In this document: one piece after another, positions 28,963 to 48,209 of the stretch | Position numbering within the stretch: the stretch's first letter is position 1 | Layout: every line of letters starts with the position of its first letter | Assembly: GCF_020103755.1 (NCBI RefSeq) | Contig: NZ_JAHSQD010000003.1 | Span: 1-64,000, forward strand | Length of the DNA stretch: 64,000 bases | Direction of reading: 5' to 3' | Source of the DNA: Streptomyces sp. LS1784 | GTDB lineage: Bacteria; Actinomycetota; Actinomycetes; Streptomycetales; Streptomycetaceae | Translations under genes and position numbers: made by a program | Notes under the pieces: model-generated | Seen by the model: the letters and a program-made list of their open reading frames with translations, nothing else | The model's database searches: none | Told to the model about the DNA's origin: nothing

Positions 28963-30309
28963 TCAGGCCTGCCGCCGCACGGCGATGACCACCGCGCCCA
29001 GGACGCACGCGACGGCGGCGGTGACGTAGGCGAGGTGGTAGCCGGCGAGCTGGTCCCCGCTGGTCGCCGCGACCAGAACCATCACCGCCACGCCCGCACT
29101 GGCGCCGATCTGCTGCGTCACGACGTTCACCGCGCCGGCGACGGCGTGCTGCCGCTCCGGGACACCGGAGAGGCCGGCGGACGTCATCGAGGGGAAGTTC
29201 AGCCCCTGGCCGATGCCGCTGACCACCAGACCGGGCAGCACGTGCAGCACGTAGCTGCCGTCCTGCGGCGTGCCCAGCCACAGCCCCGTACCCACACCGA
29301 TCAGGACGAGGCCGACGGCCATCAGCGTTCGCGGGGAGTACGCGGCCAGCAGGCGACCGGTGGCGAAGTTGGCGGTGAGGAACACGGCCAGGGACATGGG
29401 CACCAGCGCGACACCGGACTCGAAGGGCGAGTAGTGCAGCATGCCCTGCAGGTACAGCGGCGCGAAGAACAGCATCCCGACCGAGCCCATGTACTGGAGG
29501 AACGCCGCCAGGCTCGCCTCCCGGACCGAGCCGATCCGGAAGAGGCCGAGCGGAAGCACCGGGTCGGCGGTGCGGTGCTCCCGCACGACGAACAGCACCA
29601 GGGAGACCACCGCGGCGCAGAGGATGATCCACGCCGTCGCGCCGCCGCTGCTCACGCCGACGACGAGCAGCGTGAGGCCGAGCGTGCCCGTGATCGCGCC
29701 GGGCAGGTCCAGCCGACCGCGGTGCCCGGCACCGTCGGGCAGTCCGATGCGCGTCGCGGCCAGTACGCCGAGTCCCAGCAGCACCGAGAACCACAGCACC
29801 GAACGCCAGCCGAAGAACTCGGTCAGGACGCCGCCCAGCAGGACCCCGCCGCTGAAGCTCGCGGCGCCGACGGCCGCGTACACCCCGAAGGCCCGGTTGC
29901 GCGCCGGGCCGGCCGGGAACGTGTCGGTGAGCAGGGCCAGCGCGGCCGGCCCGGACAGGGCGGCGCCGATGCCCTGGACGGCGCGCGCCCCCAGCAGCGT
30001 CGCGGCGTTCGGGGCCACCGCCCCGACCAGCGCGGACACGGTGAACAGGGCGACACCGACCTCGAACACCCGCCGCCGCCCGAGCACATCGGCCAGCCGG
30101 CCACCCACCAGCAGGAAGCCGGCGAACGTGACGGCGTAGGCGGTCATGACCCACTGGAGCGTGGTTTCGTCGAGGTGGAAGCGCTCTCCGACGGACGGCA
30201 GGGCGGCGTTGAGCACTCCGAGACCGCTCACGTCCAGTGCGAGCGCCCCGGCCAGCACCCCGAGCGCCAGCCCCGGCCGGCTGACCCGCTCGATCGCGGT
30301 GTCGGTCAT
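28963..30309 (-). CDS. MFS drug-efflux transporter, DHA2-like
   Basis: A 448-residue transporter with about 14 hydrophobic segments. It has motif A as GGRLADVLGRRRVFEVG, motif C-like GPAALALLTDTFPAG and the start ALALDVSGLGVLNAALPSVGE, all typical of EmrB/QacA-type H+ antiporters. The ATG at 30309 begins MTDTAIERV. It lies 1.2 kb from the PKS/NRPS operon and points away from it, so it could export that product or serve an unrelated function. A TTGAGA-17-GACAAT promoter candidate lies about 120 bases upstream. Confidence 0.9.
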   Translation of the reverse strand: MTDTAIERVSRPGLALGVLAGALALDVSGLGVLNAALPSVGERFHLDETTLQWVMTAYAVTFAGFLLVGGRLADVLGRRRVFEVGVALFTVSALVGAVAPNAATLLGARAVQGIGAALSGPAALALLTDTFPAGPARNRAFGVYAAVGAASFSGGVLLGGVLTEFFGWRSVLWFSVLLGLGVLAATRIGLPDGAGHRGRLDLPGAITGTLGLTLLVVGVSSGGATAWIILCAAVVSLVLFVVREHRTADPVLPLGLFRIGSVREASLAAFLQYMGSVGMLFFAPLYLQGMLHYSPFESGVALVPMSLAVFLTANFATGRLLAAYSPRTLMAVGLVLIGVGTGLWLGTPQDGSYVLHVLPGLVVSGIGQGLNFPSMTSAGLSGVPERQHAVAGAVNVVTQQIGASAGVAVMVLVAATSGDQLAGYHLAYVTAAVACVLGAVVIAVRRQA

Positions 30310-30425
30310 GCGGGCCTGCCCGCGAGGTCGCGGCCGGCGAGTGCCCGGCCAGGGGGGTCGCTTCGCCGCGGCCGGGTGGACGGCACACGGCACTGCGGGA
30401 AACGCCCGGCTAAGGAGCTGTCGGC

Positions 30426-30454
30426 ATTGTCCGATGCTGCATCAAGTTTCTCAA
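30426..30454 (-). promoter_or_regulatory. Candidate promoter of the MFS gene
   Basis: Minus strand: TTGAGA (30454-30449), exactly 17 bases, GACAAT (30431-30426). Plausible vegetative type, with no second line of evidence. Confidence 0.35.
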
Positions 30455-30748
30455 CTGCCATGCGGCCAGCTTGCATTGGTCGCTCATCCGCTGTCCACCC
30501 CGCCCGGCGCGCATGATACCGGCAGTGCTCGCTCCGCGGAATCATTCGCCCACCATCGACCGGAGCCCGACGGCAGCGGGCGAGGCGCCGCCGAGCCGGG
30601 GCGCCTTCACCCCGGGTGCGGACCGCCGCGGTCGGGGCGGCTGATTTCGGCCGCGGGGCCGGCGATTCCGCACATCCGTCCCACCCGAGGAGATCGAATC
30701 GGACACTTTGGCGATCAAATCCCGCCACCGCTTCAACCGGCCCTCGAA

Positions 30749-30798
30749 GTGCGCAATCCTGTAGTCGATGCACTCGTAGTCGATACACCTCTGCGCAC
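30749..30798. repeat. Direct repeat framed by an inverted repeat, regulatory candidate
   Basis: GTAGTCGATGCACTC (30761-30775) is followed head-to-tail by GTAGTCGATACACCTC (30776-30791), a 15-base period. GTGCGCA (30749-30755) and TGCGCAC (30792-30798), reverse complements, bracket the pair. It lies 750 bases upstream of the PKS start. Confidence 0.4.
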
Positions 30799-31478
30799 CA
30801 CGGGCGGATGACAGAGACCAGCGCTGCGCAATCCCCGGCAGCGGAATTGCCTGGCAGGCCGATCGGCAGGAGCCGCACGCGTCGGCGAGAATTCCACAGT
30901 GAGCCGCTGATTGGTGAGTCGCCGATGTGCGATCACTCGAACAACCCCGAAGCCCCTGACCCTCACCCTGCATTGCCGCGTCGCGCGGTCGGCACTTCGA
31001 GCCCTTCTTCCTGCCACGAGAGGAGCAGCACTGCCCGACCGCAAGCCCATTCATGACATGTCCAGGCCCAGGGTCTCGCCGGCCGGACGCCCGGCGCCCC
31101 AGACGCGCATCCAGGCGGCCCAGGGACGGTTCGACCACGACATTGACCGCGCGCACCCCGGCCCCGAACTGCCGAAGAAGGCTGCGAGCGCGCACCGGAT
31201 CCGGCCTCCCGGTCCTTGACGGGAACGACGCACAGAACCAATCATCGAGGGGTTCATCGCCGGCAGCCGGAACGAGCCGTGCCGGCAGGGTGAAACGGCG
31301 TCGCCCGAACCGTGGTTCCCGCCCGCTTCACCGGATTTCCCGTTCGCTCTGAACGCGGAGACCGAAAACGCCGCTCCCGTCCTCACGCCGCCCGCCGGCT
31401 CCACCGCGACAATCGGTGCGGCGAGAGGTCCTTCCACGCCTCGATCCATCCCTTTTCGGCTGCCCGGACATCAACCTA

Positions 31479-31489
31479 CCCCCCCCCCC
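31479..31489. repeat. Homopolymer of 11 cytosines in the PKS leader
   Basis: An 11-C run lies 57 bases before the start codon of the first biosynthetic gene. Such tracts slip in replication and sequencing; here the change would fall in the 5' UTR. Confidence 0.8.
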
Positions 31490-31546
31490 GCTGGCCTGCC
31501 GTGAAGCTCCACCGTCCTTTCCATCCGCCCTGCTGAGGGAGTCGCC

Positions 31547-34500
31547 ATGCCCCAAGAGCGCGCAGCGCGAGACATATCCGCCGTAACGGATTTCCTGCTA
31601 TCCCGTTTTGCCGAGCTGATGGACCTGTCCGCGAACTCGGTGGACCGCTGGGCGCCGATGCACCGGTACGGGCTGGACTCGTTGAAGTCGGTGAACCTCG
31701 CGGCCTCCCTGTCCGAGTTCCTCGGCTGGCAGGTCCCGGCCACCTGGATGTGGCAGTACCCGACCGTCGACGGGCTGGCCCGCGCCCTCGTCGACGGTCC
31801 GCGTGCCGCGGAGCCCGCCCCGGGCGCCGAGCGCCGCAAGCCCTCGCACGAGCCCGTCGCGATCGTGGGCATCGGCTGCCGGTTCCCCGGAGGACCGGAC
31901 CCGTCCTCGTTCTGGCGGCTGCTGGTCGAGGGCGGCGACGCCGTCGGGCCGGTGCCGGCCGCGCGCCGCGATCTCCTGAACGACCGGGTGCGCTGGGGCG
32001 GGTTCATCGACGGCATCGACCGGTTCGATCCGCTGTTCTTCGGCATCTCGCCCCGCGAAGCCGTCCAGATGGACCCTCAGCAGCGCCTGATCCTGGAGTT
32101 GTCCTGGGAGGCCCTGGAGGACGCGGGCATCGCGCCGCACAGCCTCGTCGGCAGCGACACCGGCGTGTTCATGGCCTCCTGTTGGGGCGACTACGCCGCC
32201 CTGGCGCACTACCGCGGCCCCGACAGCCAGATCACCCCGCACACCGCGACCGGCATGCACGACGGGATCATCGCCAACCGCGTCTCCTACATCCTCGGCC
32301 TGCAGGGGCCGAGCATGGCCATCGACGCCGCCTGCGCCGGATCGCTGGTGTCGGTGCACGTGGGATGCCAGTCGATCCAGCTGGGCGAGAGCGACCTGGT
32401 ACTGGCCGGTGGCGTGAACCTGAGCTTCGTCTCCGACTACTACACCGCCATGGACCAGATGGGCGCACTCGCCCCGGACGGCCGCTGCAAGTCGTTCGAC
32501 GCCCGCGCCAACGGCTACGTCCGCGGTGAGGGCGCCGGCGTGGTCGTGCTCGCTCCGCTGAGCGTGGCGCTGGAGCGCGACCTTCCGGTGTACTGCCTGA
32601 TCAAGGGCAGCTCCTCCAACAACGACGGTCTGAGCAACGGCATGACGGCGCCCAACCCCCAGGCGCAGGAGAAGATGCTCCGCACCGCGTACCAGCGGGC
32701 GGGCATCGCACCGCACCTCGTGGACTACGTCGAGTGCCACGGCTCCGCGACGCCGCTCGGCGACCCGATCGAGGCCAACGCCATCGGCGCGGTCCTGGGC
32801 GGCGACCGCGCGGAGCCGCTGCGGCTCGGCTCCGTCAAGTCCAACGTCGGGCACCTGGAGGCGGCCGCCGGCATCGTCGGCCTGGTCAAGATCGCGATGT
32901 CGATGCGCAACGGCGTGCTGCCGCCGAGCCTGCACTACAGCGCGCCGAACCCGCAGATCATGTTCGACGAGTACAACCTGACCGTCCAGGACCGGCTGAC
33001 GCCGTGGCCGCGGCGGTCCGACGCCCGCCGCGGTGGCGTCAGCTCGTTCGGGTTCGGCGGCGCGATCTGTCACGTGGCCGTCGAGGAACTGCCGCGCCCC
33101 GAGGCCTCGCTCCTCCTGCTGGCCGCGGACTCCCCCGAGGCGCTGGCCGAGCAGGCCCGGGCGCTGCGCGACGGGAACGACCTGCGCGCGCTCTGCCGCC
33201 GGACGCCCGGCGACGGCCCGTTCCGGCTCGCGGCCACGGCCCGCGACATGGCCGAACTCCGCACCGGTCTCGACGCGTTCGGCAGCGGCACGCCCGCCCC
33301 CGGACTGAGCGTCGGGGAGAAGACCGACGGCAGGCCGCGGGTGGCGTTCCTGTTCTCCGGCAACGGCTCGCAGTGGGTGGGCATGGGCCGGCAACTGCTC
33401 GCCGGCCTGCCCGTGTTCCGCCGGTCCATGATGAAGTCCGACCGGCGGATGCGAGAGCTGCTGGGCTTCTCGCTCGTCGAGCAGCTGCTGTCCCCCGAGG
33501 GCCGCCTCGACGACATGGACGTGTTCCAGCCGCTGCTGTTCTCCATCCAGGTCGCGCTGGCCGAGACCTGGCGCTCGCTGGGGGTGGAACCGGACGTCGT
33601 CCTGGGACAGAGCGTCGGCGAGTTCGCCGCCTCCCACGTCGCCGGCGCGCTCGACTTCGACGACGCCTCCCGCCTGGCCGCCCACCACGGCCGGCTCCTC
33701 CAGCAGCTGGCCGTGGGACGCGGCGAGGGCATCGTGGTGATGACCCCCGCGGACGAGGTCCGGCCCCATCTGACCGGCGGGCTCACCGTCTCCGGCTACA
33801 ACGGCCTGAACTCCACCCTGGTCACCGGCACACCGCAGGAGATCGACGACCTCGTCCGGCGGCTGACCGAAGCGGGCGTCACCAACCACCGGGTGCGGAT
33901 GGGCCACGCCCCGCACTCGTCGCTGGTCGACCACGTCCTCGCCCCGCTGAAGGTCGAACTGGAGGGCATCCGGCCGCGGACCACCCGCATCCCGATGATC
34001 TCGACGGTCACCGGCGAACTCGTCGACGGCGCGGAGCTCGGGCCGGACTACTGGGCGGACAACCTGCGCCGCGAGATCCGGGTGGTCGACGCCCTGACGA
34101 ACCTGCGCGACCACGACATCGACGCGGTGATCGAGCTCAGCCCGCACCCCGTCCTGCTCAAGTCGGTGTCGGAGATCCTGCCGGCGGCCACCCTGCCCTC
34201 GCTCCGGCGCGGCGCCGACGAAGCCTCGACCCTGCTCGGCTCACTCGGTGCCCTGTACACCGCCGGGTTTCCCGTCGCGGCCCACCCCTTCCTGGCCGGC
34301 GACCGGGGACGGCACGTCGCGCCGAGCCCGGGCGACGCCGCGGCCGGCGAGCAGCTGCACCTCGTGCCCGTCACGGCCCGCACCACGGGCGCGCTGGCCG
34401 ACACCTGCCGCGAGCTGTCCAACCACGTCGAACGCGACCCGGGCCTGCGGGTCTGCGACCTCGCCTACACCCTCGCCGCCAGGCGCACCCATCACAGCCA

Positions 34501-37500
34501 CCGGATCGCGCTGTTCGCCCGCAACCGGCAGGACGTCCTGGACGGGCTCGCCCGGGTCGCCGCCGGCCAGTCACACCCCGACGTCGTCACCGGCACGGTC
34601 TCCGGCAGCACCGACCGCCGGGTGGCGCTGGTGTTCTCCGGCGGCGGCACCCAGTGGGTCGGCATGGGCCGGGAGCTGCTGCGCTCGCACGCCGGCTTCC
34701 GCACCTGGATGAACGCCTGCGACGCCGCCGTGCGCGCGGCCGGCGGTTTCTCGGTGCTCGACCACCTCGCCGCCCCCGCGGAGGAGGCCAGGTACGAGGA
34801 GATGGACTTCCAGCAGCCGGTGCTGTTCGCCCTCCAGGTCTCGCTGGCGAAGGTCTGGCTCGAACTGGGCATCGAGCCGGCGGCCGTCGTCGGGCACAGC
34901 CTGGGCGAGGTCGCGGCCGCCTGCGTGGCCGGGGCGCTGTCCCTGGAGGACGCCGCCCGCGTCGTGGTCGCCCGCTCGCACCTGCTGGAGCGCAAGGCCG
35001 ACGAGGGCGCCATGATCTCGGTCGACCTGCCGGAGGAGGAACTGCAGCCGCGGCTCGCCCCCTACGCGCAGCACGCCGCCATCGCCGTGGTCAACAGCCC
35101 CACCAGCGCGGCGGTCTCCGGCTCGCCCGAGGCCGTCGACGCCCTGGAGGCGGACCTCCGGCGGGACGGGATCTCGGTCCGGAGGATCCGGGTCGAACGG
35201 CCGGTGCACAGCCCCGGCATGGACCCGCTGATCCGGCCGCTGCGCGAGAGCATCGAGGGCATCACCCCGCTGACGCCGGCCATCCCCTTCCACTCCACGG
35301 CGCTGGCCGACACGGTGAACCCGGTCGCCGACGTCGACTACTGGGTGCACAACCTGCGCAACCAGGTCCGGTTCGCCGAGACGATCGGTGCGCTGGTCGA
35401 CCGGGGCGTCTCCACCTTCATCGAGATCGGCCCGCACGAGACGCTGCGCGGCGCGGTCGAGGAGATCGGGCTGTCCCGCGGTGCCCAGGTGCACGCGGTC
35501 AACTCGCTGCGGCGCGAGGAGAGCGACGTCCGCTGCCTGCTGGGCGCCGCCGCCTCGCTGTACGTCAGGGGCCTGCCGCTGACCTTCGACCCGCTGTTCG
35601 CCGACGACGTCGAGGTCGTGGAGACCCCGCTCGTCCAGTGGCAGAAGGACCGCTACTGGATCGACACCGAGCCCCGCCGCGAACCCGCACCGGCCCCGGC
35701 CCCCGTCGAAACCGTGCCCGTGGCCGCGGCCGTGGCCGTGGCCGCGGCCGCTCCGGTGGAGACGCAGCCGGTGGCGCAGCGGCCGGTGGCGGAGGTCGTC
35801 CTCGCCGAACTCGCCGACGCGCTGGGCGTGCCGGTGAGCAGGTTCGACACGGCCGCCGGCCTGCGGGACTTCGGCCTCGACTCGATGCTGGCGATCCGCC
35901 TCGTCAACAAGATGCAGGCACTGTTCGGGCACCGGGTGTCGCCGGTGGTGTTCCTGGACGGCCGCTCGATCTCCGAGGTCGTCGGTCACTTCGTCGAGAT
36001 CACCGGTGGACCGGCCGCGCCCGCGACAGCCACCCAGGCACCCCAGGCACCGGTCACGGCGGCCCGGCCCGCCCCGGCCCCGGCCCTCGGGGCCGAGCCG
36101 ATCCGGTCGTTCCTGGAGGACCTGTCCGAACTGGACGCCGAGGAGCTGGTCGAGGAACTGGACGCGCGCGGGCTGCTGGAAGCCACCGACGCACCGGCGT
36201 TGGAGCAGCTCCGGGCCGAGGGCCTCGGTCTCCGGGTGGCGCCGGCCTCGCACGGCCAGGCCTCGCTGTGGTTCATGCAGATGGTCGCGCCGGACGCCGT
36301 GCCCTACAACTTCATGGTGACCGCCCGGATCCGCACCGCGGTCGACGAGGACGCGCTGGAGCGCGCCGTCCAGGCCGTGCTGGACCGACACCCCGCACTG
36401 CGCACCGTCTTCGTCGAGGCGGGCGGCAGCCCGTACCAGGTCATCCTGGACGAACCGGTGTACGAGTTCCTCGTGGTGGACACCTCCGGCCTGGACGACG
36501 AACAGGCCCGCGAGGAACTGGCCCAGTACGGGCACGAGCCGCTCGACATGGACAACGGGCCGCTCGTGCGGATCGTCCTCATGAGGCGCGGGCCGGCGGA
36601 CCACTACCTGCTGGTGCTCGTCCACCACATCGCGTCGGACGCGGCGTCGGCCGACGTCATGATCCGCGAACTCCAGGAGTACTACGAAGGCGCCGACCCC
36701 GCCCGCAGCGCGCCGGTCGCCCCGTACACCGAGTTCGTCGAGTGGGAGCGGCAGTGGCTGGCCGGACCGGCGGCCGACGCGGCCCTGGAGTGGTGGTCGC
36801 GGAAGCTGGCCGACCCGCCCGCCCACCTCGACCTCTCCAGCAAGGAGCGGCCGCCGGGCGTCACCTACGAGGGCCGCGACATCGCGTTCCGCTGGAGCGC
36901 CGAGGAGACGCGCCTGCTGCGCGAGTTCGCGGTGCGCGAGGGCGTGTCGATCAGCACCGTCGTCCTGGCCGGGTTCTTCGCCACGCTCAACCGCGCGGCC
37001 GGGACCGAGGACTCGGTGCTGGCCACCGCCATCGCCCAACGGGCCGAGCCCGGCTGGGAATCCGCCATCGGCTACTACCTCAACACCGTGCTGGTACGCG
37101 CGAACCCCGCCGGCGACCGCAGCTTCCGCGAACTGCTGCACGAGGTCCACGCCTTCTCGCTCGGCCTCCTGGAGCACATGAACTACCCCCTCGACCTGCT
37201 GGCCTCCCAGCTGAAGCCGCCGCGGGCCGAGGGCCGCTCCCCGTGGTTCGACGTGGTGGTGAACTGGCTGTCCTCGGACGCGTTCCCCCGCTCCGTCAAG
37301 CTCTTCCACGGCGTCGGCGAAACCCTCACGCCGGACGGCGCACTGCCGCTCGAACCGCTTCAGGTGCGCAGGCACCTCGCCAAGTTCGACCTCGAAATCT
37401 CGATGGCCGACATCGACGGCAGGGTGGCCGGCCACGTCCAGTTCAAACCGAGCTACCTGGAAAGGCAGACCGTGACGGCACTGCTCGCGCTGTACCGCAC

Positions 37501-37585
37501 CGTGCTCTTCGACTCGATCGCCCGACCCGACCTGGCCCTCGGCGACATCGCGTCGACCGGCCTCCCCGAGGAGACGGACCGGTGA
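31547..37585 (+). CDS. Hybrid PKS/NRPS: ACP-KS-AT-AT-ACP-C (SalA/lactacystin-type assembly line)
   Basis: A 2012-residue cytosolic megaenzyme. ACP1 (about 8-85) has its phosphopantetheine serine at Ser45 (GLDSLKSV). The KS (about 100-512) has an intact triad of Cys263 (AACAGSLV), His398 (CHGSATP) and His436 (NVGHLEAA). AT1 (about 595-908) carries GQSVGE (Ser689) and HAPH (His790); AT2 (about 1024-1371) carries GHSLGE (Ser1118). ACP2 has Ser1446 (GLDSMLAI). The condensation domain (about 1565-1990) has HHIASDA at 1693-1699. An N-terminal ACP without its own loading AT, together with the formyltransferase at the operon end, suggests formyl priming. There is no KR, DH or TE. The ATG at 31547 follows GAGGGAG. 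It overlaps the next gene as GTGA. Confidence 0.95.
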   Translation: MPQERAARDISAVTDFLLSRFAELMDLSANSVDRWAPMHRYGLDSLKSVNLAASLSEFLGWQVPATWMWQYPTVDGLARALVDGPRAAEPAPGAERRKPSHEPVAIVGIGCRFPGGPDPSSFWRLLVEGGDAVGPVPAARRDLLNDRVRWGGFIDGIDRFDPLFFGISPREAVQMDPQQRLILELSWEALEDAGIAPHSLVGSDTGVFMASCWGDYAALAHYRGPDSQITPHTATGMHDGIIANRVSYILGLQGPSMAIDAACAGSLVSVHVGCQSIQLGESDLVLAGGVNLSFVSDYYTAMDQMGALAPDGRCKSFDARANGYVRGEGAGVVVLAPLSVALERDLPVYCLIKGSSSNNDGLSNGMTAPNPQAQEKMLRTAYQRAGIAPHLVDYVECHGSATPLGDPIEANAIGAVLGGDRAEPLRLGSVKSNVGHLEAAAGIVGLVKIAMSMRNGVLPPSLHYSAPNPQIMFDEYNLTVQDRLTPWPRRSDARRGGVSSFGFGGAICHVAVEELPRPEASLLLLAADSPEALAEQARALRDGNDLRALCRRTPGDGPFRLAATARDMAELRTGLDAFGSGTPAPGLSVGEKTDGRPRVAFLFSGNGSQWVGMGRQLLAGLPVFRRSMMKSDRRMRELLGFSLVEQLLSPEGRLDDMDVFQPLLFSIQVALAETWRSLGVEPDVVLGQSVGEFAASHVAGALDFDDASRLAAHHGRLLQQLAVGRGEGIVVMTPADEVRPHLTGGLTVSGYNGLNSTLVTGTPQEIDDLVRRLTEAGVTNHRVRMGHAPHSSLVDHVLAPLKVELEGIRPRTTRIPMISTVTGELVDGAELGPDYWADNLRREIRVVDALTNLRDHDIDAVIELSPHPVLLKSVSEILPAATLPSLRRGADEASTLLGSLGALYTAGFPVAAHPFLAGDRGRHVAPSPGDAAAGEQLHLVPVTARTTGALADTCRELSNHVERDPGLRVCDLAYTLAARRTHHSHRIALFARNRQDVLDGLARVAAGQSHPDVVTGTVSGSTDRRVALVFSGGGTQWVGMGRELLRSHAGFRTWMNACDAAVRAAGGFSVLDHLAAPAEEARYEEMDFQQPVLFALQVSLAKVWLELGIEPAAVVGHSLGEVAAACVAGALSLEDAARVVVARSHLLERKADEGAMISVDLPEEELQPRLAPYAQHAAIAVVNSPTSAAVSGSPEAVDALEADLRRDGISVRRIRVERPVHSPGMDPLIRPLRESIEGITPLTPAIPFHSTALADTVNPVADVDYWVHNLRNQVRFAETIGALVDRGVSTFIEIGPHETLRGAVEEIGLSRGAQVHAVNSLRREESDVRCLLGAAASLYVRGLPLTFDPLFADDVEVVETPLVQWQKDRYWIDTEPRREPAPAPAPVETVPVAAAVAVAAAAPVETQPVAQRPVAEVVLAELADALGVPVSRFDTAAGLRDFGLDSMLAIRLVNKMQALFGHRVSPVVFLDGRSISEVVGHFVEITGGPAAPATATQAPQAPVTAARPAPAPALGAEPIRSFLEDLSELDAEELVEELDARGLLEATDAPALEQLRAEGLGLRVAPASHGQASLWFMQMVAPDAVPYNFMVTARIRTAVDEDALERAVQAVLDRHPALRTVFVEAGGSPYQVILDEPVYEFLVVDTSGLDDEQAREELAQYGHEPLDMDNGPLVRIVLMRRGPADHYLLVLVHHIASDAASADVMIRELQEYYEGADPARSAPVAPYTEFVEWERQWLAGPAADAALEWWSRKLADPPAHLDLSSKERPPGVTYEGRDIAFRWSAEETRLLREFAVREGVSISTVVLAGFFATLNRAAGTEDSVLATAIAQRAEPGWESAIGYYLNTVLVRANPAGDRSFRELLHEVHAFSLGLLEHMNYPLDLLASQLKPPRAEGRSPWFDVVVNWLSSDAFPRSVKLFHGVGETLTPDGALPLEPLQVRRHLAKFDLEISMADIDGRVAGHVQFKPSYLERQTVTALLALYRTVLFDSIARPDLALGDIASTGLPEETDR

Positions 37586-39402
37586 CCGAAACCCTGCACT
37601 CCGAGTTCATCGCCCAGGCGGTCAAGAACCCCGACGCGACCGCCGTCTACTCCGACGCCGGCGTCCTGACCTACGGCGAACTGAATGAGCGGTCCCGGGT
37701 GCTGGCCGAGCGGCTCGTCGCCGACGGCGCGGGCCCCGGCGTCCCCGTCGGCATCTGCGTCGAGCGCACCCCCGACCTGCTCGTCGCCGTCCTGGCGGCC
37801 CTGCGCGCCGGGTCCTGCTACCTGCCGCTGGACCCGAACTACCCCGCCGACCGGCTGACCTTCATGGTCCAGGACAGCGGGACCCGCCTGCTGCTCACCA
37901 CGCCCGCGTCCCGGGCCGGTTGCCCGACCGGCCCGACCGTGGTCGTGCTCGGGGAGGGCGTGACGACCGAGCCCGGCGCGAAGCCGGTGGCGGTCGTGCC
38001 CGAGGACACCGCGTACGTCATCTACACCTCCGGCTCCACCGGCAGGCCCAAGGGCGTGGCCGTCCGGCACGCCGGCGCGGTGGCGATGCTCGCCGAGATG
38101 GACCGCGTCCTGGAGGGCTGCGACCTGAGCGGAGTCTCGGCGGCGAGCTCGGTCTGCTTCGACCTGTCCGTGATGGAGATCTTCAACGCGCTGTGCCGCG
38201 GCGGCGCCGTCGTGCTCGTCGAGAGCGCCGTGCACCTGCCGGAGAGCCGGTACGTGGACCGGATCACCCATCTGAGCGTCGTTCCCTCCGTCATGAACGG
38301 CCTGCTCGATGCCGGCGCCCTGCCCCCGAACGTGCGCTCCATCGTGTTCGGCGGCGAGGCGCTGCGCCGCAAGCTGGTGGACCGGGCCTACCGGGAGACC
38401 GGCGCCACCCGGGTGTTCAACGCCTACGGCCCCACCGAGGGCACCGTCTTCTGCTCGTTCGGGCTGGTGCCCGAACACGGGACCGACGAGCCGACGATCG
38501 GCCCGCCGACCACCACCGACCTGGTCTACGTGCTCGACGGGAACCTGCGGCCGCTCCCGCCCGGCGAGTCCGGCGAGCTCTACCTCGGCGGCGTCGGCCT
38601 CGCGCACGGCTACGTCAACCGGCCGCGCACCACGGCCGAGCGGTTCGTGCCGGACCCGTTCCGCAGCGGCGAGCGGATGTACCGCACCGGGGACGTCGTC
38701 CGGTTCACCGAGGACGGCGAACTCCGGTTCCTCGGCCGCTCCGACCACCAGGTCAAGCTGCGCGGCTACCGGATCGAACTGGAGGAGGTCGAGGCCCGGC
38801 TGACCGGGTGCCCCGAGGTCCGGGAGGCCGCCGCCGCCGTCCAGGGCAACCGGCTGGTCGGCTACGTCGTGCCCGCGGGCGACGACGCGCCGCAGGACGG
38901 GCCCCGGCTGGACCCCGCGCTCCAGAGCGCCATCACCGGCAGGCTCGCCGTCGAACTGCCCGACTACATGGTGCCCGCGACGCTCGTCTTCCTGCCCGCC
39001 CTCCCGCTGGGCCCGGGCGGCAAGCTCGACCGCAACGCGCTGCCCGAGCCGCCGGCCGCCGACACCGACGGGCCGCTGACGGCCGCCAGTACGCCGACCG
39101 AGGTCGCGCTGTCGGAGATCTGGGGCCAGCTGCTCGACCTCGAACCGTCCACCATCGACGTGCAGTCCGCCTTCTACGACCTCGGCGGCGACTCGCTGCT
39201 GCTCGTCCGCCTCGCCCGGCTGATGACCCGGCGCTTCGACCGCCGCGTCCGGGTGCCCGACCTCTTCAGCTTCCGCGACATCGCCTCCCTCGCCCGCTGG
39301 CTCGACGACGACAGCGGCGCCACCCCCGAGGTGGTCCAGTCGGCCCGCGAGCGCGCCGGCGCCCGGCGTGCCGCGCTGCGCGGCCGCGGCACCGGCCGCT
39401 GA
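37582..39402 (+). CDS. NRPS adenylation-thiolation protein (A-PCP)
   Basis: A 606-residue protein that activates one amino acid and holds it on a carrier domain. Core motifs are A3 IYTSGSTGRPKG, A5 FNAYGPTEG, A7 YRTGDVVR, A8 LRGYRIELEEVE and A10 GPGGKLDR; the PCP serine is Ser538 in DLGGDSLLL. Reading the ten pocket residues by eye gives D-L-M-S-V-G-A-V-F-K. The Asp at position 235 means an alpha-amino acid, and the pocket is hydrophobic, but I cannot name the substrate (a branched aliphatic such as leucine is possible). Having no C domain, it must donate to the C domain of the upstream protein. GTG 37582 overlaps that gene's stop. Confidence 0.94.
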   Translation: MTETLHSEFIAQAVKNPDATAVYSDAGVLTYGELNERSRVLAERLVADGAGPGVPVGICVERTPDLLVAVLAALRAGSCYLPLDPNYPADRLTFMVQDSGTRLLLTTPASRAGCPTGPTVVVLGEGVTTEPGAKPVAVVPEDTAYVIYTSGSTGRPKGVAVRHAGAVAMLAEMDRVLEGCDLSGVSAASSVCFDLSVMEIFNALCRGGAVVLVESAVHLPESRYVDRITHLSVVPSVMNGLLDAGALPPNVRSIVFGGEALRRKLVDRAYRETGATRVFNAYGPTEGTVFCSFGLVPEHGTDEPTIGPPTTTDLVYVLDGNLRPLPPGESGELYLGGVGLAHGYVNRPRTTAERFVPDPFRSGERMYRTGDVVRFTEDGELRFLGRSDHQVKLRGYRIELEEVEARLTGCPEVREAAAAVQGNRLVGYVVPAGDDAPQDGPRLDPALQSAITGRLAVELPDYMVPATLVFLPALPLGPGGKLDRNALPEPPAADTDGPLTAASTPTEVALSEIWGQLLDLEPSTIDVQSAFYDLGGDSLLLVRLARLMTRRFDRRVRVPDLFSFRDIASLARWLDDDSGATPEVVQSARERAGARRAALRGRGTGR

Positions 39403-39438
39403 GTCACCCTCCACCCGACACGAAGCAGGAGCTTCCCC

Positions 39439-41220
39439 ATGACCGACAGCCCCGAGCAGGAGTACGACCCGGGTGACGTGGCCGTCATCGGCATGTCCCT
39501 ACGGGCTCCCGGAGCCCGCACCAAGGAACAGTTCTGGGACGTCCTCGTCAACGGCCGGGAGACCGTGTCCTTCCTGGCCAAGGACGACATCCACGTCGAC
39601 GAGACCCTGATCCACAGCCCGTTCTACGTGCGGGCCTGCGGCGTGCTCGACACGTACGACAAGTTCGACCCGTCGGTGTTCGGCATCAGCGACCGGATGG
39701 CGGCCGCGATGACCCCGGAGAACCGGCTGTTCCTGGAGAGCGCCTGGGAGTCGTTGGAGGACGGCGGCTACGACCCGGACCGGCTCAAGGCCGAGATCGG
39801 CATGTACGGCGCCAACAACCCGCAGACCGCCGCGCTCTACAGCTCCCCGCCGGACCGGGTGTCGGTCGGCCCCGAGGCGATCGAGGCCAGCCTGGCGTGG
39901 TCGCCGGACACCATGACCTCCAACGCGCTGTACTACATGGGGCTCACCGGCGAGGCCGTCACCGTCGCCACCGCCTGTGCGGGCTTCCACTACGCGGTGC
40001 ACCTGGCCTGTCAGTCGCTCCTGCTCGGCCAGAGCGACATGGCGATCGCCGGCGGCGCGATGGTCCGCCTGCCGCACCCCCGCGGTCACCTGTGGGAGGA
40101 GAACCGCATCCTGTCGAAGGACGGCCACTGCCGCCCGTTCGACGCCAACGGCACCGGCACGGCGCTGTCCAGCGGTGTCGTCACCGTGCTGTTGAAGCCG
40201 CTGGGCCGGGCCGTCGCCGACCGCGACCACGTCTACGCCGTGGTCAGGGGCTCGGCCGTCAACAACAACGGCGTCAGCGCGATGGCGTACGGCCTGGCCC
40301 AGCCCGAGCGGCTGAGCGCGTGCATCGCCGCCGCCATGGAGGTGGGCGGCGTCACCCCGGACACCGTCTCCATGTACGAGGCCAACGGTCTCGGCCTGCC
40401 GATGACCGACGAGCTCGAAGTGCACGCGGCGACCATGGCCTTCGGGAAGCAGACCGCGACCACCTCGATCGGCGGGGTCAAGGGCAACGTCGGCCACGGC
40501 GGCGTGGTGTCGGGCGGCTTCGGTGCGATCAAGGCCGCGCTGGCCCTGTACCACAAGACGCTCCCGGCGACGATCAACCTCACGGAGGTCAACCAGGACC
40601 TCGACTTCCCCAGCACCCCCTTCGTGCCGCAGATCGAAGGCGCGCACTGGGAGCCGGAGGCCGGCATCCGCCGCGCCGGCATCACCTCGATCGGCGGCGG
40701 CGGCTACAACGCGCACCTGCTGCTGGAGGAGGCGCCGGCCGTCGCCGAGCGCGCCCCCGAGGACGAGGGCAGGCCGCGGCTGGCGACCCTGTCCGCCCTG
40801 GACGACGACGCGCTGGCCCGTCAGCGCACCCGGCTCCGGGACTGGCTGGAGGCCGACCCCGGCCTGCGCCTGGACGACGTCTGCTTCACCCTCAACCTGG
40901 GCCGCAAGGTGATGGGCCGCCGGTGGGCGGCCGTGGTCCGCAGCCGCGAGGAGCTGATCGCGGCACTGGCCGACGACGCCCGCGGCCCGGTCACCACGAC
41001 CGTCGCCGCCCCGCAGACGGACCCGGGTTCCTTCTCGCTCGACGACAACGGGATCGTGCCGTCCGGCCGGGACGTGCGGGCGCTGTCCGACCTGGCCGCC
41101 GCCTGGGTGACCGGCCGGCAGGTGGACTTCGACGCCCTGCACCTCGGGGAGGCCAGCCGCCGCGTGCCGCTGCCCACCTACCCGTTCCAGCCCCGCCGGT
41201 TCTGGCGTACGGACTGGTGA
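39439..41220 (+). CDS. Stand-alone ketosynthase-like enzyme with HGTGT His replaced by Asn (SalC-type bicyclase candidate)
   Basis: A 593-residue KS-fold protein. The nucleophile is present (Cys180 in ATACAGFHY) and so is the second histidine (His353 in GNVGHGG), but the HGTGT-motif histidine is Asn316 (EANGLGLPMTDE). Loss of that residue normally abolishes decarboxylative condensation, so the enzyme probably binds an acyl chain without elongating it. SalC in salinosporamide biosynthesis is a free-standing KS that closes the gamma-lactam and beta-lactone, and this gene sits in the same position relative to SalA/SalB-like genes. The C-terminal ~170 residues resemble a KS-AT linker remnant ending VPLPTYPFQPRRFW. 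An AGGAG precedes the ATG. Confidence 0.92.
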   Translation: MTDSPEQEYDPGDVAVIGMSLRAPGARTKEQFWDVLVNGRETVSFLAKDDIHVDETLIHSPFYVRACGVLDTYDKFDPSVFGISDRMAAAMTPENRLFLESAWESLEDGGYDPDRLKAEIGMYGANNPQTAALYSSPPDRVSVGPEAIEASLAWSPDTMTSNALYYMGLTGEAVTVATACAGFHYAVHLACQSLLLGQSDMAIAGGAMVRLPHPRGHLWEENRILSKDGHCRPFDANGTGTALSSGVVTVLLKPLGRAVADRDHVYAVVRGSAVNNNGVSAMAYGLAQPERLSACIAAAMEVGGVTPDTVSMYEANGLGLPMTDELEVHAATMAFGKQTATTSIGGVKGNVGHGGVVSGGFGAIKAALALYHKTLPATINLTEVNQDLDFPSTPFVPQIEGAHWEPEAGIRRAGITSIGGGGYNAHLLLEEAPAVAERAPEDEGRPRLATLSALDDDALARQRTRLRDWLEADPGLRLDDVCFTLNLGRKVMGRRWAAVVRSREELIAALADDARGPVTTTVAAPQTDPGSFSLDDNGIVPSGRDVRALSDLAAAWVTGRQVDFDALHLGEASRRVPLPTYPFQPRRFWRTDW

Positions 41221-41222
41221 CC

Positions 41223-42455
41223 ATGAGCACTCCGGCACTGGACACCCTGGACCTGGGCGACCCGGCCACGTTCGCGGACCACGACCTCGACGGGTTCTGG
41301 CGCACCCTGCGGGACACCGCGCCGATGCACTGGAACCCTCCGGCCGGCGGCCGCCGCGGCTTCTGGGTGCTCTCCCGCTACGACGACATCATGGCCACCT
41401 ACCGGGACAACGTGAACTTCACGTCCGAGCGCGGCAACGTGCTCGTCACCCTCCTGGAGGGCGGCGACGCCGGGGCCGGCCGGATGCTGGCCGTCACCGA
41501 CGGGCCCCGGCACCTGGAGCTGCGCAAGATCCTCCAGCGGGTGCTCTCACCGAGGGTGCTCGACGAGGTCGCGCAGGCGGTCCGGCTCAACACCCGGCAG
41601 TGGATCCGCGAGGCCGTCGAGTCCGGCGGCTGCGACTTCGCGGAGCAGATCGCCGGCCGGATCCCGATGACCACGATCTCGAACCTGCTCGGCGTGCCCG
41701 AACGGGACCGGGACTACCTGCTCTCCCTGACCAAGACCGCGCTGTCGGCCGACGACGAGGACGTCGACGAGGTCGACTCCGAGATGGCCCGCAACGAGAT
41801 CCTGATGTACTTCATGGACATCGTCGAGGAGCGGCGCGAGTCGCCCGGCGACGACGTGATCAGCATGCTGATCGCCAGCTCCATCGACGGTGTGCCGCTG
41901 TCCGACGAGGACGTCGTGCTCAACTGCTACAGCCTGATCATCGGCGGCGACGAGACCAGCCGGCTGACGATGATCGACTGCGTCCGCACGCTCGCGGCCC
42001 GGCCCGAGCAGTGGCGGCGGCTCAAGCACGGCGAGGTCGCGGTCGAGACCGCCGTGGAGGAGGTGCTGCGCTGGGCATCGCCCACGATGCACTTCGGGCG
42101 CAGCGTCGAACGGGAGACCGAACTGCACGGCGTACGGCTGCGGCCGGGCGACATCGTCACGCTCTGGCACGCCTCCGGCAACCGGGACGAACGGGTCTTC
42201 GCGCGGCCCGAGGTGTTCGACCTCGGCCGCACCCCCAACAAGCACCTGGCCTTCGGCTACGGCCCGCACTTCTGTGTGGGCTCGTACCTGGCCAAGGTGG
42301 AGATCGCCGAACTCCTCAAGGCCCTGCGGGACTTCACCCTCGGCTTCGAGCAGACCGCCGCGGCGCTGCCGATCCGGTCCAACTTCCTGACCGGGTTCTC
42401 CACCATGCCGGTGCGCTTCCGACCCGACCACTCCGGACTGAAGGAGTGCGGATGA
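41223..42455 (+). CDS. Cytochrome P450, probable hydroxylase of a carrier-bound amino acid
   Basis: A 410-residue P450. The heme loop is FGYGPHFCVG with Cys351 as ligand, the K-helix is EEVLRW, and the I-helix oxygen-binding motif is GGDETSR in place of AGxDTT. The E-T variant recurs in P450s acting on carrier-bound substrates and in SalD-like enzymes. It starts two bases after the KS-like gene and overlaps the formyltransferase start as ATGA. Predicted reaction: beta-hydroxylation of the amino acid held on the PCP, supplying the oxygen later used for the beta-lactone or side chain (inference from the salinosporamide pathway). Confidence 0.93.
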   Translation: MSTPALDTLDLGDPATFADHDLDGFWRTLRDTAPMHWNPPAGGRRGFWVLSRYDDIMATYRDNVNFTSERGNVLVTLLEGGDAGAGRMLAVTDGPRHLELRKILQRVLSPRVLDEVAQAVRLNTRQWIREAVESGGCDFAEQIAGRIPMTTISNLLGVPERDRDYLLSLTKTALSADDEDVDEVDSEMARNEILMYFMDIVEERRESPGDDVISMLIASSIDGVPLSDEDVVLNCYSLIIGGDETSRLTMIDCVRTLAARPEQWRRLKHGEVAVETAVEEVLRWASPTMHFGRSVERETELHGVRLRPGDIVTLWHASGNRDERVFARPEVFDLGRTPNKHLAFGYGPHFCVGSYLAKVEIAELLKALRDFTLGFEQTAAALPIRSNFLTGFSTMPVRFRPDHSGLKECG

Positions 42456-43147
42456 ACATCTACATGTCAGGACAAGGGGCGTTCGCGGTGCAGGTCGCGG
42501 AAGCCCTCCTGGACAAGGGGCACAAGATCGCCGGTGCGGCCGCGCCTCGGCTGCGCAAGGGCAAGTCCGACGAGAGCGACGCGATGTCCTGGGACCGCCT
42601 GCGCGCCTGGGCGTTCCCCCGGGACATCCCCTGGACGGACTCGGCCGAACTGCGCGCGATGCACATCCCGGACGGGGTGGACGTCATCGTCGCCGCGCAC
42701 TCGCACGCCTTCCTCGGCCGCCAGACCCGCGCCAGGGCCGGCATCGCCACCATCGGCTACCACCCCAGCCTGCTGCCGCTGCACCGCGGCCGGGACGCGA
42801 TCCGGTGGACGATCCGCGACGGCGACAAGGTGACGGGCGGGAGCGTCTACCACCTGACCGAGCGAACCGACGGCGGCCCGCTCGCCGCCCAGGAGCACCT
42901 GTTCGTGCCCCCGGGCTCGACCGCGCAGAGCCTGTGGCGCGACCACCTGGCGCCGCTCGGCGTGCGGCTGTTGCTGAAGGTGGTCGACGACCTCGCCGCG
43001 GACCGGCGGATCGAGGTCCCCCAGGACGAGAAGCTCGCGACCTGGGAGCCCGCGATGGACACCCAGCCGCTGTTCAAGCCCGAACTCATCGCCCTGCCCG
43101 GGTCGGTGCAGGTCGAGAGCCACACGTGGGCACTTCACGAAGAGTGA
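42452..43147 (+). CDS. Small formyltransferase (N10-formyl-THF family)
   Basis: A 231-residue protein of the methionyl-tRNA/GAR formyltransferase fold. The active-site loop is IGYHPSLLPLHRGRD with His104, and the catalytic Asp140 lies in TERTDGG. The usual Asn of the Asn-His-Asp set is Gly102, which is unusual. It lacks the tRNA-binding C-terminal domain of true Fmt and has only a short helical tail. As last gene of the operon (ATGA overlap with the P450), it likely provides a formyl group for the pathway, most attractively onto ACP1 of the first enzyme as a one-carbon starter. N-formylation of an amino group is the alternative. Confidence 0.9.
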   Translation: MNIYMSGQGAFAVQVAEALLDKGHKIAGAAAPRLRKGKSDESDAMSWDRLRAWAFPRDIPWTDSAELRAMHIPDGVDVIVAAHSHAFLGRQTRARAGIATIGYHPSLLPLHRGRDAIRWTIRDGDKVTGGSVYHLTERTDGGPLAAQEHLFVPPGSTAQSLWRDHLAPLGVRLLLKVVDDLAADRRIEVPQDEKLATWEPAMDTQPLFKPELIALPGSVQVESHTWALHEE

Positions 43148-43722
43148 CGGCCGCGCGGTGAAAGCCGCATGGTGACGGCCGTCGCGGCGGTCGCGCGGTG
43201 ACGGCCTTCCGACCCGCGAACACCGGTTCCCCGCACACAACTCGTGTGCGGGGAACCGGTGTTTGTGCCGCCACACGCGTGTCGGCCAGGCCCGAAACCC
43301 GCGGGAACCGTGCACCCCTCCCCTGGCGTCCCGTACTCGGGGCACGGCAGTGGCTCACCGCGATCCGCGCCGCCACCCCGGCCGAGCCGCCCCAGCCCGC
43401 GACACCCCCGGTGACCAGCACCGACGTCCCGGAGGCGCGGCGTTCACCGCTCGCCCCGGCAGCGCGCCGACCGCTCTCGGTCACCGTTCGCCACTACCGG
43501 CCGGGACCGGAACCGCCCCCGAGGCGGCCCCCCATGGCGTGTTTTCCGTCACAGACCATCAGACATTTTATCCGGTTTTACCTGGACTACTCCCGATCTG
43601 ACGATACGTCGACAAGGAAATACCTCCTCACCGCTTTCTCATGAGCCTTTGACACTTCGTTTAGGTGTCCATGAAGATCCGCTCGCACTTCGCCCATATA
43701 CCTGAGTCGGAGCTTACGCACA
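43148..43722. other. Intergenic region with terminator and LamG-gene promoter zone
   Basis: The left part has three GTGACGGCC repeats and the operon terminator. The right part (about 43540-43720) is clearly A/T-richer than its surroundings and should hold the promoter of the secreted LamG protein gene. TTGACA at 43659-43664 lies inside an inverted repeat, GACAC-N9-GTGTC (43661-43679). No gene is supported here. Confidence 0.5.
43219..43263 (+). terminator. Terminator of the biosynthetic operon
   Basis: Perfect 18-base arms (43221-43238 and 43244-43261) with loop AACTC, extended by A-T pairs at the base and followed by TTTG. Very strong stem-loop 70 bases past the formyltransferase stop. Confidence 0.9.
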
Positions 43723-46700
43723 GTGAGAACATCAGCAAGACGGTCGGGCAGCCTGCTCGCCGCGGCACTCGCCGCGGTCGCGCTGGCCGCGACCGCGGTG
43801 GTGCCGGCCGCCGCCACCGGAGGGACACCTCCGCCCGGCGTGACGGATGCCCAGGACACCGCCGAGAGCCTGGCCGTCCACGAGGCCGCCCGCACCGGCA
43901 AGCCGGTCGAGGTGCTCGCCAAGCGCAGCGAGACCAGCGACACCGTCGCCCAGCCCGACGGCAAGCTGAAGACCACCACCTACGTCCAGCCCAGGCGGGT
44001 GCGCAAGAACGGCGCCTGGGTGGAGCTCGACCCGACGCTGCAGTCGCTGCCCGGCGGCGCCGTCGCCCCCAAGGGGTCCACCGCGGACCTGCAGTTCTCC
44101 GGCGGCGGCAGCGCGCCGCTGGTCACGATGGCCCGGGCCGGCAAGGAGCTGAAGCTCAGCTGGCCGAAGCCGCTGCCCAAGCCGGCGGTCAACGGCGCGA
44201 CCGCCGAGTACGCGTCGATCCTGCCGGACGTGGACCTGCGGCTGTCCGCCACCAAGACCGGGTTCACCCAGGTCATCGTGGTGCACACCGCCGAAGCCGC
44301 GAAGAACCCCGAGCTGGACCAGCTCCGGCTCGGCCTGCACGGCAACGGCCTGACGTTCAGCCAGGAGGCGGACGGCACCCTCTCCGCGAAGGACCCGTCC
44401 GGCGGCGGCACCGTCTTCGAGGCGCCCGTCCCGGTCATGTGGGACTCCTCCAAGCCGGCCACCGCCACGCCGAGCGCCCCGGCGAACGCCCCGGCCGCCG
44501 CCCCCAAGGCTCTCAAGGCCGCCCCGCAGGCGGCTCCGCAGGCCGAGGCCGCCGCCCCCGCGCAGAACGCTCCCGCCGCCGGCCAGGACGACCCCGCCGC
44601 CGCCGGCTACGGCGACCTGCCCGGCGAGGGCGCCAAGATGACCCGGCTCAAGGTCGACCTGCCCAAGGACAGCCTGGTGCTGTCGCCCGACCAGGCCATG
44701 CTGGACGCCCCTGACACCGTCTACCCGGTGATGATCGACCCGGCGTGGAACACCCCGCACGCCGGCGACTGGGCGGGTGTCTCGCGCACCTACCCGAACC
44801 AGGCCTACTGGCACTTCACGTACAACAGCAGCTACGTCCACGACTGGGGCGTCGGCTACTGCGGCGACACCTCGCGGTGCGCGCCGACCGACGTGAAGCG
44901 GGCGTTCTTCCAGGTGCCCAACCCGTTCGCGGGCAAGCAGATCCTCAGCGCCACCTTCGGCACCTACGAGAGCTGGTCGTACTCCTGCGACGCCCGGCCC
45001 GTCGAGCTGTGGAACACCGGCTACATCGCCCCCGGCCTGACCTGGAACGGCCAGAACTCCTCCGGGTTCTGGGGCCGCTACCTGCAGACCATCAACACCG
45101 CGAAGGGCTGGGGCGGCAACTGCCCCGGCGGCTGGCTGGAGTACGGCGAAGACGGCGCGGTGCGCAACCTCGTCCAGGACGCCGCGAACTGGGGCTGGCC
45201 GACCATCACCTTCGGTCTGAAGGCCCAGAACGAGGGCGACACCCTCGCCTGGAAGCGCTTCACCGACGACGCCTACCTGTCGGTGTACTACAACCTGCGG
45301 CCCAACCAGATCCCGATGTCCGACATGACGATGTCGCCGGGCTCGGTCTGCCAGTACCCGGGCATCAAGATCAACAAGATGCCGCAGGTCACCACCCGGG
45401 CCACCGACCCGGACGGCGAGGCCATCGGCGTCCAGTTCGCGGTCGGCTGGGACGACGGCACCGGCCTGCGCCGGCGCTGGTGGTCCACCGGTTCGGAGGA
45501 CGCCGCACCGGGGTGGGACACCTTCAAGGCCTCCGGCTCGATCTTCTCCTGGCCGCTGCCGACCAACCTGCCGCAGAACCTCCAGCTCGACTGGGAGGCC
45601 CGCGCGTGGGACGGCGCGCAGTGGGGGCCGTGGTCCTCCGACGGTGACCCGACCGGCTGCTACTTCATCGTCGACACCTCCGCACCGGACGGCCCGGCGA
45701 TCACCTCGGACGCCTACCCGGGCTCCAAGGACGCCACCGCGGCGCTCCCGTGGACCGACGGCGTCGGCAGGAGCGGCTACTTCACCATGAAGTCGGCCGC
45801 CACCGACGTGGTCAAGTACCAGTGGGGCCTCGACACCTCACCGTCCGCGGCGAACGAGATCGCCACCAGCGGCGGCGCCGGCCAGAGCGTGCGCATCCAG
45901 CCGCAGACCGCCGGCGTGCACTTCCTCTCCGCCCGGGCCGTCGACGGCGCGGGCAACGCCTCGCAGCCCGAGACGTACTACTTCAACGTGCTCTCGGGCC
46001 AGACCCAGCGCGCCGCCTGGTCGATGGACGACCCGAGCGGCACCAGCGTCACCGGCGCCGGCGGCAACGTCGAGGCCGCGCTCGGGTCCGGCGCCACCCC
46101 GGGGGCGCCCGGCCACCTCAAGGAAGCCCTCGCCCTGAACGGCACTGCCAACGGCTACGCCGAGACCCAGGGCGCGGTGCTGGACACCACCCGCAGCTTC
46201 ACCGTCTCCTCCTGGGTCCGGTTCGACGGCACCACCGGAACCCGCGCGGCGGTCAGCCAGGGCGGCCCGGACTACTACGCCTTCCACCTCGGCATCGAGA
46301 ACGTCGCCGGCGTCCCCAAGTGGGGCTTCAAGGTCCAGACCGCGGCCGGCAACCAGGACGCGAGCACGATCGGCCTGCAGTCCACCGACCCCGCGACGAC
46401 TGGCGTGTGGACCCACCTGACCGGCGTCTGGAACGCGGACACGCGCACCATCCAGCTGTACGTCAACGGCACCCTCGCCAAGTCGGCCACCGCGAACGCG
46501 GTCTGGGACGGACACGGCCCGCTGGAGATCGGCCGCACCCGCTGGAAGGGCCAGTGGGTCGACTTCTGGCCCGGCGCCATCGACGAGGTCAGGATCTGGG
46601 ACCGCTCCCTGAGCCAGGCCGAGGTCACCGACGTGGCCGCCGACAAGCAACTCGCCATCGGCCGACCCGCCAAGGCGGTCTGGCACCTGGACGGCAGCGA

Positions 46701-48120: not shown

Positions 48121-48135
48121 CCCCTCATCCTTCCG

Positions 48136-48166
48136 CGGGCCGGGCGGCTACCTGCCGCCCGGCCCG
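48136..48166 (+). terminator. Stem-loop between the LamG and RHS genes
   Basis: Perfect 13-base arms (48136-48148 and 48154-48166), 5-base loop, 43 bases before the RHS start. Either a terminator that separates the two genes or a partial one that lowers toxin-gene expression. Confidence 0.7.
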
Positions 48167-48209
48167 TGGTCTGCCATATCCACTTCCCTTTCGAGGAGTT
48201 GTTCCACCC

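Follow-up and report, generated by a model that had tools for sequence, protein, structure and literature searches.

Lactacystin was a founding tool compound of proteasome research. Its biosynthetic cluster was reportedly described by Tsunoda et al. (Commun. Chem. 2025) as lctA-F of Streptomyces lactacystinicus, and is said to encode a PKS/NRPS hybrid, an NRPS, a KS-like cyclase, a P450, an MbtH protein (LctE) and a formyltransferase. At one ring carbon salinosporamide carries CH3 and omuralide carries H. The core genes of the salinosporamide pathway are salABCDEF (PMC8609351). In this study, we analyzed a window (the whole stretch of DNA, 64,000 nucleotides) from a soil actinobacterium related to Kitasatospora. 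It contains an operon with the A-B-C-D gene logic of the Salinispora salinosporamide system (salA-salD, salI), SalC being the one protein of that system compared directly by sequence.

By this description, the parts of lctA-F match genes A, B, C, D and F of the window, and the two differ in that lctA-F includes an MbtH gene while the window cluster has none between D and F. Unlike the salinosporamide cluster, the window operon contains a formyltransferase, which together with the acyltransferase residues predicts a one-carbon starter, and unlike the system with SalI, the genome has no extra proteasome beta subunit. Clusters of this kind are already known from SalA-D of salinosporamide and, reportedly, from lctA-F of lactacystin. 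We put a probability of about 0.87 on the reading that the operon would make a formyl-primed gamma-lactam-beta-lactone proteasome inhibitor of the omuralide/lactacystin type. The lactacystin/salinosporamide type of product had been named in the original prediction, and it is now supported by a shared clade with SalC, by the common gene logic and by a contrast locus that lacks the formyltransferase.

Gene content and extent of the cluster

The features of the cluster are as follows.

28963..30309, minus strand: MFS (DHA2-type) efflux transporter (PF07690, 147.9 bits; kept in relatives)
31547..37585, plus strand: gene A, SalA-like PKS/NRPS (Pfam domains, motifs and residues across 21 loci)
37582..39402, plus strand: gene B, SalB-like A-PCP protein (TIGR01733, Pfam, specificity residues in 21 loci)
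39439..41220, plus strand: gene C, SalC-like KS-like cyclase (match to SalC 7s2x, YEAN motif, tree)
41223..42455, plus strand: gene D, SalD-like cytochrome P450 (PF00067, motifs; alternative GTG start at 41217)
42452..43147, plus strand: gene F, folate-dependent formyltransferase of 231 aa (PF00551, 60.8 bits; solved relative, invariant residues)
43217..43265, no strand assigned: strong hairpin after the operon, terminator-like without a T-run (folding energy)

The five co-directional genes from 31547 to 43147 are intact and stand in the predicted order, and Pfam returned the claimed domain series: ACP-KS-AT-AT-ACP-C, A-PCP, a free-standing KS-like protein, a P450 and a small formyltransferase. 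By domain calls and gene order, this matches the salinosporamide/lactacystin-type layout, in which a PKS ending in a C domain is accompanied by a separate A-PCP protein, a KS-like enzyme and a P450. Some features of the lactacystin subtype are also present, namely a formyltransferase in the operon, a loading AT without the carboxylate Arg and an extender AT with it. Profile searches (Pfam and TIGR) found no crotonyl-CoA carboxylase/reductase (CCR) among the operon proteins, and the CCR coupling of the salinosporamide subtype is accordingly not seen. The reading frames overlap by a few bases at A/B and D/F, and at C/D if the GTG start of D is used, and the gap between B and C is 36 bp. The arrangement is not a matter of chance, as this gene set recurs at 20 further loci.

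A strong terminator had been proposed after the operon. The hairpin is there at about 43217-43265, with a 22-bp stem, a 5-nt loop and a folding energy of -44.9 kcal/mol (z -9.38 against shuffled sequences), but the T-run is absent and a terminator scan that requires one does not call it.

The five genes were correctly delimited in the original prediction, but a conserved divergent gene was missed. This MFS gene diverges from the operon, and a gene 70-87% identical to it occupies the same place in 18 of the 20 related loci; it was not seen at the other two (L025 and L028). Its best subfamily match is TIGR00711 (efflux_EmrB), with a score below the cut-off of that model. The protein probably exports the product, and the gene is a likely exporter and self-protection gene. 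On the other side of the cluster, two very long open reading frames of 1465 aa and more than 2000 aa lie at 43723-54668, the first of them with repeated LamG-like stretches by eye. These are common only to L009 among the related loci and were therefore placed outside the cluster. Since the MFS gene is found in 18 of 20 loci and the genes 3' of F are shared only with L009, the nearest of the related loci, the cluster proper is drawn from 28963 to 43147.

The cyclase, the assembly line and the starter unit

Gene C is, by sequence, a SalC homologue. SalC (7s2x) was its best match among all solved chains, with 905.7 bits over the full length (residues 1-593), and the next chain reached 531.5 bits as the sum of two KS domains. 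The protein is 66% identical to the SalC crystal sequence over its full length and 33% identical to the KS of gene A. At the active site Cys180 and His353 are kept, and Asn316 replaces the first catalytic His (YEAN), a change common to SalC and to all 21 loci. The prediction that the KS-like enzyme is of the SalC type was examined in a tree, where clustering away from SalC did not occur: gene C, SalC and the homologue of a related genome, G426, formed one clade (support 100/100) apart from the KS of gene A and from the KS domains of other chain-extending PKS. By analogy with SalC, gene C would perform the aldol and beta-lactone closure.

Gene A encodes, in order, ACP1 (Ser45), KS (Cys263/His398/His436), AT1, AT2, ACP2 (Ser1446) and a C domain (HHxxxD, 1693-1698). 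In extender ATs an Arg binds the free carboxylate (Arg117 of FabD). AT1 has its nucleophile at Ser689 (GQS) and His714 at +25 in place of this Arg, and AT2 has its nucleophile at Ser1118 (GHS) and Arg1143 at +25. The residue at +25 is His in AT1 and Arg in AT2 in 21 of 21 loci, and AT1 is therefore read as loading-type and AT2 as extender-type, an assignment made from these residues. AT1 carries the motif HAPH in the loci with gene F (F-type loci). AT2 carries RPVH, which to our knowledge is not a standard methylmalonyl motif.

The closest solved relative of gene F by sequence is the hydrolase domain of 10-formyltetrahydrofolate dehydrogenase (ALDH1L1). The AlphaFold model of F is of low confidence (pLDDT 58), and its fold matches in the PDB agree with the sequence result but were given little weight. 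His104 and Asp140 of F are invariant among the loci and a YHPSLLP motif is present; the ALDH1L1 domain likewise has YHPSLLP and the Asp, equivalent to its His106/Asp142. Unlike ALDH1L1, F is a free-standing protein of 231 aa without carrier or dehydrogenase domains. In 10-formyltetrahydrofolate dehydrogenase, a carrier-like domain bears the formyl group on its 4'-phosphopantetheine arm (PMC8748788), so there is precedent for passing formyl to a pantetheine thiol. The acceptor of F would be CoA or ACP1, and the retained AT1 favors CoA.

An orphan F homologue (71% identity; L058, G025:C1:778577-779284) was also found in a genome without gene C, and F is therefore not strictly tied to this pathway. 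An NRPS-condensation-like gene lies near it, with no PKS or SalC homologue there. We considered this orphan as a second formyl-primed pathway and rejected it, as no PKS stands beside it.

A contrast to the window is provided by G426, a Streptomyces-group genome (L039/L040, G426:C14:1500-36000) with A-B-C-D genes of the SalC type in the same order. Identities to the window are 59% for A, 64% for B, 65% for C and 73% for D, and no F homologue was found in the entire genome. A CCR (541 bits) adjoins gene D, and the cluster also encodes a second 20S beta subunit (369 bits) with Phe45 and Val49, which are reportedly the changes of SalI. On the strength of the CCR and the extra beta subunit, the locus is salinosporamide/cinnabaramide-like. 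The KS motifs are DTACSAS and HGTGT in G426 versus DAACAGS in the F-type loci, with HGSAT or HGTAT in all of the latter except L028, and the AT1 motif is YASH in G426 versus HAPH. F, the KS and AT1 thus vary as a set, which fits a shift of the starter from acetyl to formyl. By eye, the G426 cluster also has genes resembling a branched-chain aminotransferase, a PaaK-like ligase, an ornithine cyclodeaminase and PhzF.

In the proposed pathway, F would move the formyl group of 10-formyltetrahydrofolate onto a pantetheine thiol, that of CoA or of ACP1, and AT1, which to judge from its residues cannot hold an extender carboxylate, would place the formyl unit on ACP1. The KS would then join this formyl unit to the (methyl)malonyl that AT2 has placed on ACP2, to give a 3-oxo-propionyl (semialdehyde) chain. 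B would activate the amino acid, which for lactacystin would be leucine, D would hydroxylate the amino-acid side chain on the PCP, as SalD does, and the C domain would form the amide. Gene C, as expected from its homology to SalC, would close the aldol and the beta-lactone and release the bicycle. The one-carbon starter would account for H in omuralide where salinosporamide has CH3.

Two other accounts of the starter were weighed against this pathway. The A-B-C-D core is common to the salinosporamide type, and the pathway might be acetyl-primed as in salinosporamide or cinnabaramide, with F acting late as an N- or O-formylating tailoring enzyme. This is very improbable: F is present in 21 of 21 loci of the clade and missing from the whole G426 genome, the active-site motifs of the KS and AT1 change along with it, and the window shows no CCR gene coupled to the operon. 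Formylation of holo-ACP1 by F itself, with AT1 vestigial or serving in proofreading, seems unlikely rather than far-fetched, as the nearest relative of F acts in concert with a carrier-like domain of the same polypeptide. However, the nucleophile Ser of AT1 is kept in 21 of 21 loci, its motif differs between the F-type loci and the relative without F (HAPH versus YASH), which argues for its use, and the published lactacystin study is said to have formyl-CoA as an intermediate. The formyl starter of the original prediction is supported by the contrast with the CCR-bearing relative without F, but loading of ACP1 probably proceeds via AT1 and not directly from F.

Related loci and the amino-acid unit

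When named genomes were scanned for gene C, homologues (81-93% identity) turned up at 20 other Streptomyces and Kitasatospora loci. Genes A, B, C, D and F occur together in all 20, and in the same order in 19. At the species level, gene C was present in 11 of 70 genomes of the window's genus and in 17 of 395 sampled genomes of the family, 16 of them F-type and one the distinct G426 type. In Streptomyces alfalfae XY25, three contigs (L017, L018 and L019) match the whole cluster equally, perhaps as an assembly duplicate.

Gene B consists of an adenylation domain (TIGR01733, 411.9 bits, above cut-off) and a PCP (Ser538). The nine residues of its specificity pocket read DLMSVGAVF, or DLMSVGAVFK with the final K assumed, and across the 21 loci the variants are DLMSVGAVF, DMMNVGAVF and DMMHVGAVF. 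A leucine signature was looked for and set aside, as DLMSVGAVFK matches no leucine code known to us. Neither these residues nor the RPVH motif of AT2 fits a standard code that we know, which leaves leucine and methylmalonyl as candidate units for the side chains of the product. Gene D has the P450 motifs ExxR at 280 and the heme Cys351, and is predicted, by analogy, to hydroxylate the PCP-bound amino acid.

A motif scan of the window found no MbtH gene, and D and F overlap there. At least eight relatives (L012, L013, L014, L016, L021, L023, L026 and L027) have an MbtH-like gene in the space between D and F, and the copy at L012:13023-13262 was confirmed by Pfam. The window genome has other MbtH genes outside the operon.

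One locus, L028:158-12717 of Streptomyces sp. SID12501, is a rearranged chimeric cluster. Its A, C and F are of the formyl type, whereas its B is 75% identical to that of G426 versus 62% to that of the window, and its D 84% versus 74%. It also has a LysR regulator whose sequence resembles that of one in G426. The affinities of B and D show that modules are exchanged, and L028 is expected to produce a bicycle with a formyl starter and the amino acid of the other type.

The exchange seen in L028, whose B and D are nearer to the CCR-type G426, also bears on whether the window cluster makes the same formyl-primed bicycle as a side-chain analogue, with another amino acid, another extender or both. 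Together with the non-canonical and slightly variable A-domain pockets and the non-standard AT2 motif, it makes such an analogue conceivable, with the balance leaning against it. The B protein of the window is 78-93% identical to those of 19 other F-type loci, which argues most probably for one shared amino acid, and no unusual amino-acid or extender genes were recognized beside the operon. We retain the omuralide/lactacystin type as the preferred reading.

Proteasome subunits and possible self-protection

Each of the 16 F-type carriers has one 20S beta subunit, as against two in G426. A search of the window genome and the 15 other carriers for a second subunit of the SalI type found none. The only beta subunit of the window genome (L103 and L041; G000:C380:5264-5923) has Met31, Val45 and Ile53. 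We compared beta subunits from 12 carriers and 14 non-carriers picked without regard to this protein, and among 97 variable columns, positions 31, 53 and 45 ranked as the top three by association with the cluster, relatedness not being corrected for. Enrichment was also seen in 395 genomes, again with relatedness uncorrected: Met31 is present in 10 of the 16 carriers versus 20 of 379 others, Ile53 in 10 of 16 versus 5 of 379, and Val45 together with Ile53 in 7 of 16 versus 0 of 379. Non-carriers here are genomes without an F-type cluster, and G426 is counted among them. The Met31/Val45/Ile53 triple was found on both Kitasatospora-type and Streptomyces-type backgrounds. Position 31 is a site of the S1 pocket. 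Positions 45 and 53 form the base of this pocket (PMC13180746).

The association suggests, at about even odds, that self-protection relies on an altered S1 pocket in the sole housekeeping proteasome (Ile31Met, Ile45Val and Val53Ile) instead of a second, resistant subunit, and that this alteration has more than one origin, in Kitasatospora as well as in Streptomyces, in parallel with the cluster. However, four carriers (G003, G069, G019 and G691) have none of the changes at 31, 45 and 53, and pocket alteration therefore cannot be the sole protection, with the MFS exporter as a candidate for the remainder. The association of the S1 pocket with the cluster is, as far as we have seen, the new part of this work, and it is an independent pointer to the proteasome as the target.

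The F-type gene set occurs in 16 of 395 species genomes of the family and in 11 of 70 of the window's genus, and producers are thus common and open to comparison. G426, as a contrast, and L028, as a chimera, indicate which parts determine the starter unit and which the amino acid, information that is useful for new proteasome inhibitors. The link between the cluster and the S1 pocket makes self-resistance in these bacteria directly testable.
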